Source: Marinobacterium halophilum (GTDB lineage Bacteria; Pseudomonadota; Gammaproteobacteria; Pseudomonadales; Balneatricaceae). Taken from it: a stretch of 64,000 nt of DNA. The position numbers were made by a program, and so were the translations under genes. The number at the start of each line of letters is the position of its first letter. Position 1 is the first letter of the stretch. The notes under the pieces are model-generated. The model had not been told where the DNA came from and made no database searches. It saw only the letters and a program-made list of their open reading frames with translations. Of this stretch, positions 47,583 through 53,396 are shown in pieces. The DNA is taken from the NCBI RefSeq assembly GCF_003014615.1, contig NZ_PYGI01000022.1:1-64000 (forward strand), in the 5' to 3' direction.

Positions 47583-48539
47583 TCAGATCATGCCGGTCAA
47601 GCGCAGTAGATAGATACCGGCACTGAGCGTGAGTACCGATCCCAGCGTGGTCGTCAGTACGATATTGGCGGCCAGCTGGGCATTGCCGCCCATGGCGCGC
47701 GCCATTACAAAACTGGCCGCAGCCGTAGGACAGCCGAACAGCACCATCAGAATCGCCAGCTCTTCACCGTCAAACCCGTATAGCCAGGCACCGCAGGTGA
47801 GCACCACCGGCAAAATTACCAACTTCAGCGCGGTGGCCCAGAAGGCCTGTGCCGAGGTGTCATGCAGACTCTTCAGGTTCAGTGAAGCACCGATGGTCAG
47901 CAGCGCCAGCGGCAGCGTCAGGTTGGCGAAGTAAGTGCCGGTCTTGGCGACCACTTCAGGCAGCGGAACGCTGAACCAGGACATGGGCAATGCGGCCAGT
48001 ACCGCTAGAATCAACGGGTTTTTCAGGATCTCCAGCAGTGTGCTGCTGAGCTTCATGCTTTCACTGCGCTGCATCGGGATGCTCAGGCAGAGGATCGACA
48101 GCACGTTGAACAGCGGGATGACCAGTGCCAACAGCAACGAGGCCTGAGCCAGTCCGGCATCACCGAACAGGTTGAAGCTGACCGCCAGCCCGATAATGCC
48201 GTAGTTGCTGCGGAACGCCCCTTGAATGAACACGCCGAGATCTTCTGGAGCCTTTATCCAGCGTGCCGCCGACCACCAGATCAGGCCAAAACTGAGCAGG
48301 ATGCCGACCAGTACATAGCCCAGCTGGTGCGGATTGAACACGGCCTGAAAATCCATCCGTGCAATCGACATGAATACCAGTGCCGGCAGGGTGATGACAA
48401 ACACCAGCTTGGAGCCGGTGGCGACAAATGCCTCGTCGATCAACCGGCAGCGGCGCAGCAGATAACCGAGAAACAGGATGAAAAAGATCGGTGCAACGAT
48501 ATTGGCGGTGTAGCCCAGGGTTTGCAGGTAGAGGTTCAA
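47583..48539 (-). CDS. AEC-family permease (auxin efflux carrier type)
   Basis: This 318-residue membrane protein has about ten helices in the inverted-repeat AEC/bile-acid transporter fold, with the central NPLILAVLAALP motif. AEC permeases move malate, malonate or other carboxylates. The start is TTG 48539 with GGAG 7 bases upstream. It is separated from the EamA gene by 67 bases on the same strand. A second AEC gene lies at 49837. Confidence 0.88.
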   Translation of the reverse strand: MNLYLQTLGYTANIVAPIFFILFLGYLLRRCRLIDEAFVATGSKLVFVITLPALVFMSIARMDFQAVFNPHQLGYVLVGILLSFGLIWWSAARWIKAPEDLGVFIQGAFRSNYGIIGLAVSFNLFGDAGLAQASLLLALVIPLFNVLSILCLSIPMQRSESMKLSSTLLEILKNPLILAVLAALPMSWFSVPLPEVVAKTGTYFANLTLPLALLTIGASLNLKSLHDTSAQAFWATALKLVILPVVLTCGAWLYGFDGEELAILMVLFGCPTAAASFVMARAMGGNAQLAANIVLTTTLGSVLTLSAGIYLLRLTGMI

Positions 48540-48606: not shown

Positions 48607-49488
48607 TCAACGGCGCTCAGGCTGCAGCCGGTGACCGAAGAAGAACAGCGCCAGACCGGTCACGACCAGCAGGCAGCCCTGCCACAACCCCGGTGTCAGT
48701 GGCTCTTCATTGAGCCAGTGTCCCAGCATCAACGCAAAAATCGGCGTGATCAGCGTTACCAGTGCCACCGTGCTGGGTGGCAGGTGGCGCAGCACATGAA
48801 AGTAGCAGACGAAGCCGAGCAGCGAGCCGAACAGGGCAAGATAGATGATCGCCCAGAACGAGCGGCTGCCGGGGTCGATCTCCAGCGGTGCTGCGCCGAG
48901 TAGCCACCAGGTAATGGCAAAACCGGGCAGTGACCAGAGCAGGGCGCCGACGGTATGCGCCAGCGGATTGATCTGGGCACTGCTGCGCTTGACCATGACG
49001 CCACTGAGGCTGAACAGGCTGACGGCCAGCAGAAGCAGCAACAGGCCGGGCAGGCTTTGCGGTCCCAGTGCCACATCATCGGTAAAAATGACCCCCAGGC
49101 CGCTGAAAGCCAGCAGGCATGCAATCCAGCGATAGGCGCGAAAACGGGGTTCGTCGAGCAGCCACTGCCCCATCACGGCGGACAGGATCGGGGCCAGTCC
49201 GAACATGATCGAAATCAGCCCCGAGGGCACATAGCGTGAGGCGATATAGGTGCAGCACATGGCCCCGAATACACCGATTGAGGCATAGGCATAGGTGGTC
49301 TGGGCGCGGCGGTGCAGCGGCAGCTTGATACGTAACAGGCGCAGCAGCAATACGCCGAGCACGGCGGCAATGGCCATGCGCAGGCCACCGGCGAGGACCG
49401 GGTCAACCGATTCGCTGCTCCAGGCAATGGTCAGTGGGGTGGTCGACCAGACCAGCACCACGGCAAGATAGGACAGGGGGACCGACAT
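48607..49488 (-). CDS. EamA/DMT-family exporter
   Basis: This 293-residue protein has ten membrane helices and two EamA repeats, the second with PPSTVALVTLITPIFALMLGHWL. The family exports amino acids and other metabolites. ATG 49488 with GGAG 6 bases upstream is preferred to an ATG 27 bases earlier. An SD-preceded 32-codon leader peptide and a long hairpin lie upstream, so expression is probably attenuated by translation of the leader. The substrate may therefore be an amino acid (inference). Confidence 0.88.
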   Translation of the reverse strand: MSVPLSYLAVVLVWSTTPLTIAWSSESVDPVLAGGLRMAIAAVLGVLLLRLLRIKLPLHRRAQTTYAYASIGVFGAMCCTYIASRYVPSGLISIMFGLAPILSAVMGQWLLDEPRFRAYRWIACLLAFSGLGVIFTDDVALGPQSLPGLLLLLLAVSLFSLSGVMVKRSSAQINPLAHTVGALLWSLPGFAITWWLLGAAPLEIDPGSRSFWAIIYLALFGSLLGFVCYFHVLRHLPPSTVALVTLITPIFALMLGHWLNEEPLTPGLWQGCLLVVTGLALFFFGHRLQPERR

Positions 49489-49530
49489 ACATAACTCCGT
49501 GTCAGCGGCGGGCATTGCTACAACGACAAA

Positions 49531-49558
49531 GGCCGCAGAAGCAATGCTGCGGCCTTGA
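49531..49558 (-). terminator. Attenuator-like hairpin upstream of the EamA gene
   Basis: On the minus strand a perfect 10-bp stem, AAGGCCGCAG and CTGCGGCCTT with an 8-base loop, is followed by TGTCGTT, a poor T-run. Its loop GCATTGC (49543-49549) is complementary to GCAATGC (49514-49520) further downstream, so an alternative fold or pseudoknot can form near the ribosome-binding site. Confidence 0.65.
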
Positions 49559-49575
49559 ACAATAACAGAAACGAA

Positions 49576-49674
49576 TCAGTGGCAGGGCAGCATCAGCGCA
49601 CGACGCATCTTCGGCGGTGCACATCGGGTGTCCGCTCGTCGGATGGCAATCGGGGCGTTGAATCGTGGCTGCAT
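49576..49674 (-). CDS. Leader peptide upstream of the EamA exporter
   Basis: This 32-codon frame begins at ATG 49674 with AAGGA 6 bases upstream, a better ribosome-binding site than many full genes here. It contains six Arg (MQPRFNAPIAIRRADTR at the start) and five Pro, and ends in Pro-Cys-His. It stops 18 bases before the attenuator-like hairpin. A promoter TTGACG (49723-49728) 17 bases before GATGAT (49700-49705) precedes it, with a CCGGT/ACCGG inverted repeat inside the spacer. Leader function is inferred from position. Confidence 0.6.
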   Translation of the reverse strand: MQPRFNAPIAIRRADTRCAPPKMRRALMLPCH

Positions 49675-49699
49675 GATGAATCCTTGCTGGTGAGTCCTG

Positions 49700-49728
49700 A
49701 TCATCCGGTATCACACCGGTCACGTCAA
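49700..49728 (-). promoter_or_regulatory. Promoter and candidate operator of the EamA leader
   Basis: Minus strand TTGACG (49723-49728), 17-base spacer, GATGAT (49700-49705). The spacer contains an inverted repeat, CCGGT at 49705-49709 and ACCGG at 49715-49719, well placed for a repressor. Confidence 0.55.
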
Positions 49729-49836
49729 CCGTGAATAAAATGAAACGGACGGCTGAGTAAATGTCGCCCCACAGCGTTCCGGGAATGTCACAATGGGGGG
49801 CCTTGCTGCCCCTTTTACGTTACTGGATGATTGCCG

Positions 49837-50790
49837 ATGTTGCAGACCCTGTTACTGACCACCCCCGTTTTCATTCTCATGGCCATCGGTTATCTGGCGG
49901 TGCGGGCGGACTGGGTCAATGCCTCGGCGCTGCCATCGCTGGGCAGTTATGTGGTCAAGCTGGCGCTGCCGGCACTGCTGTTCCAGTCGATGGCGTCGCG
50001 TCCGGTGAGCGAATCACTGGACCTGGATTATCTGCGTGTCTACGCACTGGGTTCGCTGGTGTTGCTGGTGAGCACCTTTGTATTCAGTTGGCGCGGGCGA
50101 GGGCTGGATCTTTGGCCATCCGCCTTTCAAGGGCTAGGGTCGACGCTGGCCAACAGCGCGTTCATCGGTTTGGCGGTCGCGGGCAAGATTTTCGGCAGTG
50201 CGGCCGCTGTTGCGGTGGCGCTGACCATGTTGGTGGACCTGTTGCTGTTGATACCGCTGGGCCTGCTGTTGGCCGATCTGTTCAGCGGCCGCGGTGGCGC
50301 GTTGAAGAATACACTGAGTATGCTCGGTCGTACGCTGACCAATCCGCTGGTGCTGGCGATTGCCGCTGGCCTGCTGATGTCGTTGGCCGAGCTGCGGTTG
50401 CCGGAAGCACTGGATCAGGTGGTCGGGATGATGGGGCGTTCGGCACCAGCAGTTGCCCTGTTTGTTATCGGCGGAAGCCTGGTCAACACCTCACTCAAGG
50501 GGCAGATGACCGATATAGGTCAGATGACCCTGTTCAAGCTGTTACTGCATCCGGCGGCGGTGGCGCTGGCCGTGTGGCTGTTGCCGCCGTTTGATCCGGT
50601 GATGCAGGCGATCGCCATTCTGATGGCAGCGATGCCGATGGCCAGCGTGTTGTCCCTGATCAGTCAGCGTTATGGCCAATCGGCGTTGTGTTCACCGGCG
50701 CTGGTGGTGGCCACGGCGTTGTCGTTCCTCAGTATCAACCTGGTGCTATGGCTGCTGGGGCTGGCGGGCATGCTGCCGTTATCCGTCTGA
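49837..50790 (+). CDS. AEC-family permease, second copy
   Basis: This 317-residue membrane protein has about ten helices of the AEC fold, with NPLVLAIAAGLLMSL as the counterpart of the central motif in the first copy. The two are divergent in sequence, so not a recent duplication. ATG 49837 is preferred to a TTG six bases earlier. It converges on the DoxX gene with a 12-base 3' overlap. Confidence 0.88.
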   Translation: MLQTLLLTTPVFILMAIGYLAVRADWVNASALPSLGSYVVKLALPALLFQSMASRPVSESLDLDYLRVYALGSLVLLVSTFVFSWRGRGLDLWPSAFQGLGSTLANSAFIGLAVAGKIFGSAAAVAVALTMLVDLLLLIPLGLLLADLFSGRGGALKNTLSMLGRTLTNPLVLAIAAGLLMSLAELRLPEALDQVVGMMGRSAPAVALFVIGGSLVNTSLKGQMTDIGQMTLFKLLLHPAAVALAVWLLPPFDPVMQAIAILMAAMPMASVLSLISQRYGQSALCSPALVVATALSFLSINLVLWLLGLAGMLPLSV

Positions 50791-51408
50791 CGGCGGTTGC
50801 ACCCCCAGACCGGTACGACGGGCCAGCCAGTAGTCCAGGCTGGTGAAACGGCCGCCTCCGGTGAAGAACAGGCTCAGCAGCATGACGAAATAGGTAGCGG
50901 CAAATTCGATACCGTTGTTGAGGATGACAACGGAGCCACGCCCGGTCAGCCAGTCGTAGTTGCCGTGTTCTTGCAGAATGGCGCGAGCGCGCTGCAAGCG
51001 TTCGGCAGACTCCATTACCCGTTCATTGGCCAGCCAGCTTGATGGGTCGGCGATGGCCAGCCAGCCGTTGTCCCAGTGGACAGTAACGGCCGCCACGATC
51101 ATGGTGACCATCAGCGGCAGGCTGATCCAGCGCACGGCCAGCCCGATCAACAGCAACAGACCGCCGAAGAATTCGGTGCCGGCCGCAAGTGCCGCCAGCA
51201 GTTCAGGAAAGGGCAGCCCCAGTCCCCAGTCCGGATTGCCGAACCAGGCAGCGGTATCCTCGAAATGACTCAGCTTGTTCCAGCCCGCCTGCAGCATGAT
51301 CGGTGCCAGATAGAGCCGCAGCAGCAGCGGTGCCAGGCCATCCCCCCATTGCACATGTTGCAGGCTGCCTTGCAGGGGGCGGTATAGGGTCGTCAGTCGG
51401 CTGTTCAT
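50779..51408 (-). CDS. DoxX-family membrane protein of the RiPP operon
   Basis: This 209-residue protein has four membrane helices and the DoxX features LRLYLAPIMLQAGWNKLSHF and GTEFFGGLLLLIGLAVRW. A long soluble loop between helices three and four is unusual for the smallest DoxX proteins. ATG 51408 overlaps the stop of the DUF2063 gene as ATGA. DoxX genes often accompany MNIO/bufferin clusters, where a membrane role in metal or redox handling has been supposed. The name bufD is sometimes used; I leave the symbol empty. Confidence 0.87.
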   Translation of the reverse strand: MNSRLTTLYRPLQGSLQHVQWGDGLAPLLLRLYLAPIMLQAGWNKLSHFEDTAAWFGNPDWGLGLPFPELLAALAAGTEFFGGLLLLIGLAVRWISLPLMVTMIVAAVTVHWDNGWLAIADPSSWLANERVMESAERLQRARAILQEHGNYDWLTGRGSVVILNNGIEFAATYFVMLLSLFFTGGGRFTSLDYWLARRTGLGVQPPSDG

Positions 51409-52202
51409 GGCTGCCTCTCTTCGCACGGCTGGGTGCCCAGCACAACGCCGTCACGCTGAAATTGTTGTAACAGATCCACGCCTCCCTGGCAGAGGGTGTC
51501 ACGGGGGATATGGGGCAGTTCATCGGCCATCTGTTCCAGTGCCTGCAGACCGCTCAGCGCTGGCGCTTCGTGGAGCCGCCAGAGCAGGCGGGCACTGATC
51601 GCATTCAACTCGATGAATTTCACTGCATCTTCTCGGTTGCGGTACACCAGCAACCAGGTGGGCTGCTCGGGCGGGCAGTCAGGACGACATTCAGTGCTGA
51701 TCCGGTGTACCGGCCATTGGTAGCCCAGCGACCAGGCCAGCGGTGAGACGATCGGGTGTTCCTGCAGCAGCTGTTCCGTGGAGATATTCACAGGGGGCCA
51801 GTCGGCAAAGGGATCATCCTCGGCAATATCCAGTGCCAGCTCGATCCACTCGTAGTGCAGCAGTTCCTGCAGGAATGGCAGATCATCCGGTTGTGGTGTC
51901 CGATGCTGTTCGACATAGTCGCGATAGGCCTGGGCCAGATCACGGAACAGCGGGCTTTGGGCACCGTACTGCTGGATGAAACGGCGCACCTCGGCCTGCC
52001 AGAAACTGTCCGAACACAGGCTGCGGTAGACCGGAAACGCCCCTTGCAGGAAACCGGCGATATTGTTGAAAAACAGATCGACGTACACCTGCATGCGTCG
52101 GGCGTCGATACCCTCGGGCAGTGGCTGATCGGGGTTGCGGATCTGATCCGCGAACCGGCGCTGACGGCGGATGAAGTCGGGCTCAGGCGTGCAGACGGTC
52201 AT
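51405..52202 (-). CDS. bufC: DUF2063 partner protein (BufC/HvfC type)
   Basis: This 265-residue protein begins with the family motif [35 protein letters not shown], the N-terminal DUF2063 domain, followed by a C-terminal winged-helix-like part. In MNIO systems this protein binds the enzyme and delivers the leader region of the precursor. ATG 52202 with GGGAG 5 bases upstream overlaps the end of the DUF692 gene by 20 bases. Upstream codons in the same frame show out-of-frame DUF692 coding. Confidence 0.9.
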
Positions 52203-53028
52203 GTTCGCTCCCGTGCTGGTAGTGTCTGATCTGCGCCACTTCCTGCAGCAGTTCGGCCAGTGGCGGCAGGTTGAAATCACGCTCCAGCAGGGTCGCGACG
52301 GGGCCGGTGTGGGTATAGGTTTGCTGCAATAATGCCCACACGGGATCGATGATCGAAGCGCCATGCGTGTCGATCAGCAGATCTTCGGCTTCTCTGTAGT
52401 GGCCCGCCATATGCATGCATACCACCCGCTCGGCAGGCAGGCTGCGCATGAAGGCTGCGGCATCGTAGCGGTGGTTGACGCTGTTGACATAGATGTTATT
52501 GACGTCGAGCAGCAGGTCGCAATCGGCTTCCTGCAGCACGGCGTTGATGAATTGGGCTTCGCTCAGCGCGGTGGCCAGCGGAGTGTAGTAGCTCACATTT
52601 TCGATGGCGATACGGCGTTGCAATCGATCCTGTACCTGACGGATACGGGCCGCGACGTACTGTACCGCTTCTTCGGTAAAGGGGATCGGCATCAGATCAT
52701 AGAGGTGGGCATGATCGCTACAGCTGCTCAGATGCTCGCTGTACAGGTGAATGTCGTGCTGATCCAGAAAGTGCCCCACCTGATCAATGAAATCAAGGTC
52801 CAGCGGTTCCGGTCCCCCCAGCGACAGCGACAGGCCGTGGGCGCTGAAGGCATGGCGTTCGGTCAGGGCGCGAAACTGCTTGCCCAGGCGTCCGCCCAGT
52901 TGCATCCAGTTTTCCGGTGCGACTTCAAAGAAGTCTATGCGGCTCAGGTCGGTAGCGGCCAGCTCCTTGAGCATCGGCCGCCTGAGGCCGAGGCCGGTAC
53001 CGTGCAGGGGCAGGGTCTTGGGATACAT
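52183..53028 (-). CDS. bufB: DUF692 multinuclear iron oxidative enzyme (MNIO, BufB/HvfB type)
   Basis: This 281-residue TIM-barrel enzyme belongs to the MNIO family that modifies cysteine residues of RiPP precursors. The metal ligands are in place: AHGLSLS (His64), SEHLS (His99), [31 protein letters not shown] and LLERDFN. In characterised bufferin and Hvf systems, cysteines in EGKCG motifs are converted to oxidised heterocycles that bind copper. ATG 53028 has AAGGAG 6 bases upstream. It follows the precursor gene after 77 bases. Confidence 0.93.
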
Positions 53029-53105
53029 GGTGCGCTCCTTGTCAGCGGGCCGTGAGTGAGCGGTGGTGTGGAAGGACAGCCTGGAGCGCAGGCTGCCCAG
53101 TGGAA

Positions 53106-53396
53106 TTACTGGTTGCCACCACACTTGGCTTCACCGCATTTACCTTCGGTATCGGCCTTGGGGGTCGCTTCAGCGCCGCACTTGGCTTCACCGCACTTGC
53201 CTTCGGTATCGGCTTTGGGCTTGGTATCACCGCCGCACTTGGCCTCACCGCACTTGGCTTCAGCCAGTTCGGCATAGCCGCTGCTCAGGGGCTGGGCAGC
53301 GAAGGGGTTATCGGCCGCTACGGCGGAGGTGGCACCGAGGCCAAGCAGAAATGCGGTGCCTACAGCGGCGATGGTCGGTTTGGTGTGATTGGACAT
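53106..53396 (-). CDS. bufA: Bufferin-like RiPP precursor with six KCG cysteines
   Basis: This 96-residue precursor has a Sec signal peptide ending SAVAAD (about residue 28), a short spacer, and a C-terminal region with six cysteines (49, 54, 68, 73, 87, 92), all in EAKCG or EGKCG motifs arranged as three pairs. Residues 60-74 and 79-93 are identical ([15 protein letters not shown]), a 19-residue tandem duplication. In bufferins the motif cysteines are modified by the DUF692 enzyme and the product is exported to the periplasm to chelate copper. AGGA precedes the ATG; an ECF-like promoter lies upstream. Confidence 0.92.

Follow-up and report, generated by a model that had tools for sequence, protein, structure and literature searches.

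In the trp- and his-type attenuators of amino-acid operons (PMC1183508), the end of a short translated frame pairs with the 5′ arm of the next GC-rich hairpin, and the control codon lies just 5′ of that pairing. The leader described here, which precedes an EamA-family transporter gene of Marinobacterium halophilum, appears to share this arrangement. Unlike the trp/his type, it stands before a transporter and not a biosynthetic operon, and leaders of its kind often hold a single Trp codon, with the adjacent Arg conserved; the leader in the window, by which we mean the whole 64,000-nt stretch analyzed (contig NZ_PYGI01000022.1), has no Trp codon. By layout, the closest characterized case is mdtU before mdtJI, the Escherichia coli spermidine exporter genes, where a 34-codon frame lies ~100 nt upstream of the exporter gene (PMC7815308). 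Both frames are short, upstream of a transporter and most conserved C-terminally, and premature termination regulates mdtJI (PMC7815308). In contrast to what we propose for the EamA leader, mdtU-mdtJI control is Rho-dependent with spermidine as inducer, and the end of mdtU is proposed to pair with the exporter ribosome-binding site, whereas the end of the EamA leader would pair with a terminator arm (PMC7815308).

Ligand-sensing and arrest peptides offer a second comparison. The conserved residues late in the EamA leader peptide recall TnaC and SpeFL (PMC8429421, PMC7815308), but the motifs differ, and the EamA leader is known from sequence, with arrest only proposed. Similarly, the basic residue and Pro-Pro of the window's RCAPPK recall RAPP-type arrest peptides, whereas the Arg-x-Pro-Pro spacing of those peptides (PMC10951233, PMC12992588) is absent and the EamA gene encodes no protein-localization component. 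By analogy, the putative mechanism resembles both trp-type attenuation and ligand-sensing leader peptides. In most of the features tested, the locus fits the leader-peptide attenuator class but lacks the run of codons by which amino-acid-specific members are defined, and we put the probability that positions 49495-49728 form an EamA mRNA leader working as a ribosome-mediated transcription attenuator at roughly two in three.

The first-pass annotation had placed a promoter, a Shine-Dalgarno-preceded 32-codon frame and a 10-bp hairpin upstream of the EamA gene, and all were located on the minus strand. The features, in window coordinates, are as follows.

49700..49728, minus strand: sigma-70-like promoter, TTGACG (49728-49723), 17-nt spacer, GATGAT (49705-49700)
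49576..49674, minus strand: leader frame of 32 codons, MQPRFNAPIAIRRADTRCAPPKMRRALMLPCH, from ATG at 49674 to stop TGA at 49578-49576, with Shine-Dalgarno AAGGA just 5′
49606..49617, minus strand: putative control position, Pro-Pro-Lys then Met (ATG 49608-49606), where other families have Trp; the CTGC core of region 1 follows 18 nt further 3′
49581..49594, minus strand: region 1, the putative antiterminator strand, formed by the last leader codons (GATGCTGC...GCC) and predicted to base-pair with arm A and the beginning of the loop
49547..49556, minus strand: hairpin arm A, AAGGCCGCAG, forming a 10-bp stem with arm B
49539..49546, minus strand: hairpin loop, CATTGCTT
49529..49538, minus strand: hairpin arm B, CTGCGGCCTT, with the short T-run TGTCGTTG next; like strong terminators elsewhere but weaker in the window
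49512..49519, minus strand: element C, AGCAATGC, complementary to the hairpin loop
49495..49498, minus strand: Shine-Dalgarno GGAG of the EamA gene, kept in Marinobacterium
48607..49488, minus strand: EamA-family (DMT) transporter of 293 aa, the putatively regulated gene (PF00892, E 4.5e-31)

Downstream of arm B the order is TGTCGTTGT, then element C (49519-49512), then GGAG. An alternative leader start 10 codons further 5′ (MIRTHQQGFIMQP..) is also open; aligned leaders point to the Shine-Dalgarno-preceded ATG at 49674 as the start kept in relatives. The EamA gene start is conserved in relatives as MSVP. Because the best NCBIfam models for the protein (2A78, YedA and YddG) score far below their cut-offs, we make no substrate call. 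Two Mem_trans-family transporters (PF03547) flank the gene, at 47583-48539 (minus) and 49831-50790 (plus), one of them divergent. Further along the window, 50779-53396 (minus) holds a probable bufferin-type RiPP cluster with a repeat-containing small protein (53106-53396), an MbnB/TglH/ChrH-family enzyme (PF05114, E 4e-104), a DUF2063 protein and DoxX.

The nearest genomes to the window are those of Marinobacterium. Codon-level conservation of the 32-codon frame, on which the first-pass annotation had staked its reading, was seen upstream of the ortholog in six of seven further species (M. weihaiense, M. sediminicola, M. alkalitolerans, M. stanieri, M. iners and genome G007). The leader peptides of M. 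weihaiense and M. sediminicola read MQLTFNAPIIIRRADTRCAPPVMRCALMLPCL and MLLSSAPVVMRRNDAIGVPPKACLCIELPSPDLF, respectively. Between the window and M. weihaiense the frame carries 17 differences, 8 at third codon positions, giving a pN/pS of 0.37 (8.5 synonymous changes over 25 sites versus 8.5 nonsynonymous over 68). Promoter, leader Shine-Dalgarno, leader start, hairpin and the SD-proximal TGACA-GGAG are all kept in the Marinobacterium alignment, with GGATGAT of the promoter invariant; an inverted repeat once noted in the promoter spacer is not conserved there.

Counterparts extend well beyond the genus (labels f, g, L and G denote family, genus, locus and genome). A leader frame followed by a GCCGCAG..CTGCGGC-T-run hairpin precedes the orthologous gene in at least 11 families of the order (f1, f8, f12, f14, f16, f18, f24, f29, f31, f32 and f44), so that the layout of translation-dependent attenuation before an EamA transporter, claimed earlier from one sequence, recurs in six relatives and across the order. 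In f29, f44 and genera g3, g8 and g13 of f1, the transporter is ~44-60% identical and the hairpin reads GGCCGCAG-loop-CTGCGGCC before its T-run; f8, f12, f14, f16, f18, f24, f31 and f32 were added by a search with a distant ortholog. By a uniform rule (an ATG-initiated frame, 20-62 codons long, whose end lies 3-48 nt 5′ of the hairpin), 72 of 81 loci have a frame, which is no prevalence estimate because the list omits loci where earlier inspection showed no hairpin and because in a few of the 81 the conserved frame is shorter than the longest one. A transporter-independent pattern search (TGGCG, gap, GCCGCAG, gap, CTGCGGCTTTT) gave 11 matches in 391 genomes of the order, five of them (L120-L123, L129) directly upstream of the orthologous EamA gene. 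A sixth, L130, sits at the end of a contig and has a plausible leader, and at L129, which belongs to f31, the leader lacks an in-frame Trp motif. Across the class, the same kind of search gave 4 matches in 369 genomes (matched strings only). In f29 (L076, L085, L089) and f44 (L084, L098-L115), a -10-like element was seen by eye, separated from the leader ATG by just 6-9 nt or so, close enough that these frames may be translated from leaderless mRNAs. Rfam covariance models returned only tRNAs above the gathering score in the window and no match above it at 14 related loci.

Conservation, and not stability, carries the structural evidence, since the single-sequence fold of the window leader is no better than shuffles (z 0.40). 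Comparison among relatives supports the frame, the predicted hairpin, their spacing and the complementarity between them. The end of the frame can pair with terminator arm A and part of the loop, a pairing common to the families whose loop-specific part shifts with the loop by clade: AGGGAC/GTCCC in f44, GGAACG/CGTTCC in f29 and GATGCTGC/GCAGCATT in the window. With stems located by an anchored rule, this pairing exceeded synonymous-codon nulls across 33 leaders (Fisher 1e-14 if the leaders were independent, which they are not) and over 13 clade medians (Fisher 0.0013). For the window alone, p was 0.045 against synonymous-codon nulls and 0.116 against dinucleotide shuffles, and g3, g13, f14 and f32 taken singly were not significant. 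In most families the hairpin is followed by 7-8 T in 9, like an ordinary intrinsic terminator. Marinobacterium has 4-6 T in 9, and a terminator scan of the window did not call the hairpin at 49556..49529. This weak T-run is the main weakness of the transcription-attenuation model for the window, where Rho or translational control could contribute.

From this arrangement we infer the direction of control, the stalling itself and termination by the hairpin. RNA polymerase would start near 49693 and a ribosome would translate the 32-codon frame. A ribosome running to the stop codon would cover region 1, leaving arm A to pair with arm B, and transcription would end before EamA. A ribosome held ~18 nt before region 1, at Pro-Pro-Lys/Met in the window or Arg-(x)-Trp in other families, would instead leave region 1 exposed for pairing with arm A and the loop, so that the hairpin would not form and EamA would be transcribed. 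The model leaves the no-translation case unexplained.

The N-terminal halves of the peptides vary freely between genera, and conservation falls in the part opposite the terminator. Outside Marinobacterium most peptides have Arg-(x)-Trp shortly before the stop: Arg-x-Trp-Arg in most f29 and f44 leaders (CARKWRAQG and CVRFWRMV, for example, or ..RCARKWRAQGRRLCD in f44), Arg-Trp-(Met/Leu)-(Arg/Trp)-Pro in g3 and Arg-Trp in most leaders of f24. In Marinobacterium the place of Trp is taken by Pro-Pro-Lys, then Met, Val or Ala, with Ser-Pro-Lys in M. iners and Pro-Pro-Val in M. weihaiense as exceptions. Six of seven Marinobacterium leaders, the window's among them, place the control codon 18 nt from the CTGC core (36 nt in M. 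alkalitolerans, where there is an insertion), and 18 nt is also the modal Trp-codon-to-core spacing among Trp leaders. Given its footprint, a ribosome held at a control codon 18 nt away just clears the core.

The residues themselves bear on the signal. Arginine had been suggested, but Arg is not position-conserved at the Marinobacterium control site (M-R-R in the window; A-C, V-R and M-R in relatives), whereas Pro-Pro-Lys there and Arg-(x)-Trp elsewhere are, and for this reason arginine-codon attenuation is rejected as the sole cause. The window also has no run of codons for one amino acid there. Two known motifs were tried and set aside. The RAPP-type motif (Arg-Ala/Gly-Pro-Pro near the C-terminus) has the wrong spacing, with R-C-A-P-P, G-V-P-P, G-M-P-P and G-I-S-P found; the macrolide/ketolide Arg/Lys-X-Arg/Lys motif (PMC8298421) fits some leaders (K-M-R, K-V-R) and not others (V-M-R, K-A-C).

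The rival that survives best, although we consider it rather improbable, is attenuation by tRNA shortage, in which low charged tRNA-Trp or tRNA-Arg would stall the ribosome at the control codons and switch the transporter on. Of 42 leaders from outside Marinobacterium, 38 have Trp among their final 18 codons, 36 of them with Arg adjacent or one residue off; several f24 leaders have two or three Trp, and a ribosome stalled at the Trp codon would just clear region 1. Yet the same DNA read out of frame yields Trp in 26/42 and 16/42, so base composition accounts for part of the signal. The Trp codon is often single and is missing from five of six tabulated Marinobacterium leaders and from f31, while the neighboring Arg, which tRNA supply does not require, is conserved too. 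For an exporter, induction by starvation would also be backwards; it would make sense only if the protein were an importer. We think that a nascent peptide which slows or arrests its own translation (through Pro-Pro in the window) is more probable than a shortage of Arg or Trp tRNA. Building on this, one old attenuator may have kept its 18-nt geometry and changed its cue, from Arg-Trp pausing in most of the order to Pro-Pro-Lys pausing in Marinobacterium, with an orphan EamA switched on by a small molecule or a stress that is detected within the ribosome; we offer this only as a speculative extension, with the odds against it.

The loss of Trp and the weak T-run would suit an attenuator that in the window's lineage is a decaying relic, once functional and now partly constrained. 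In M. marinum (L049/L033) the hairpin is retained and the leader frame has only 11 codons, a reduction that could reflect decay, sequencing error or an N-terminal extension of EamA, and upstream of the Nitrincola orthologs (protein ~76-79% identical) the whole leader is absent. A second, longer frame in M. marinum begins at an ATG close by and reads on in frame to EamA with no stop between. Against decay stand the purifying signal in the frame, the retention of Pro-Pro-Lys at its 18-nt spacing, and the preserved promoter and hairpin, which together make a relic unlikely.

Somewhat less probable still is translational control, in which the hairpin and a loop/arm:C pairing would switch access to the EamA ribosome-binding site. 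The first-pass annotation had proposed that the loop pairs close to that site, and an 8-bp complementarity does exist between GCATTGCT (arm A end and loop) and element C; however, C ends 13 nt 5′ of the Shine-Dalgarno in the window and leaves it uncovered, and the pairing common to families is instead that of frame end and arm A. A counterpart of the pairing can be drawn by eye on folds of the Marinobacterium leaders despite their differing sequences, involving arm A in M. sediminicola and M. stanieri, where UUC:GAA in one corresponds to UGC:GCA in the other. Over 33 leaders, loop-to-downstream complementarity exceeded mononucleotide shuffles (Fisher 3e-10 if independent), but with dinucleotide shuffles it was often not significant (window p 0.30). 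Some 50-250 nt separate the hairpin end from the gene in f29 and f44, and so C cannot cover the ribosome-binding site there. Nor can C decide intrinsic termination, because it lies 3′ of the T-run. In several families (L074, L077, L071, L073), as at 49512-49519 of the window, C is complementary to the terminator loop and part of an arm. We regard loop:C pairing as a secondary element. Finally, it is very improbable that the small frame does no more than serve translation reinitiation or encode a small protein that acts independently: a leader frame can increase translation of what follows it (PMC4833913), but here the N-terminal halves are free to vary, the conserved stretch faces the terminator and the distance to EamA varies widely.

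Our search of the open-access literature found no leader of this kind for an EamA/DMT exporter, which does not by itself prove absence. Read as a ribosome-mediated attenuator, the locus represents an apparently undescribed leader-peptide attenuator that accompanies a single orthologous EamA transporter through many families of an order. Among its members the control residue has gone from Trp to Pro-Pro-Lys with the geometry unchanged, which makes them a natural series, and identifying what stalls the leader would directly hint at the transporter's cargo.
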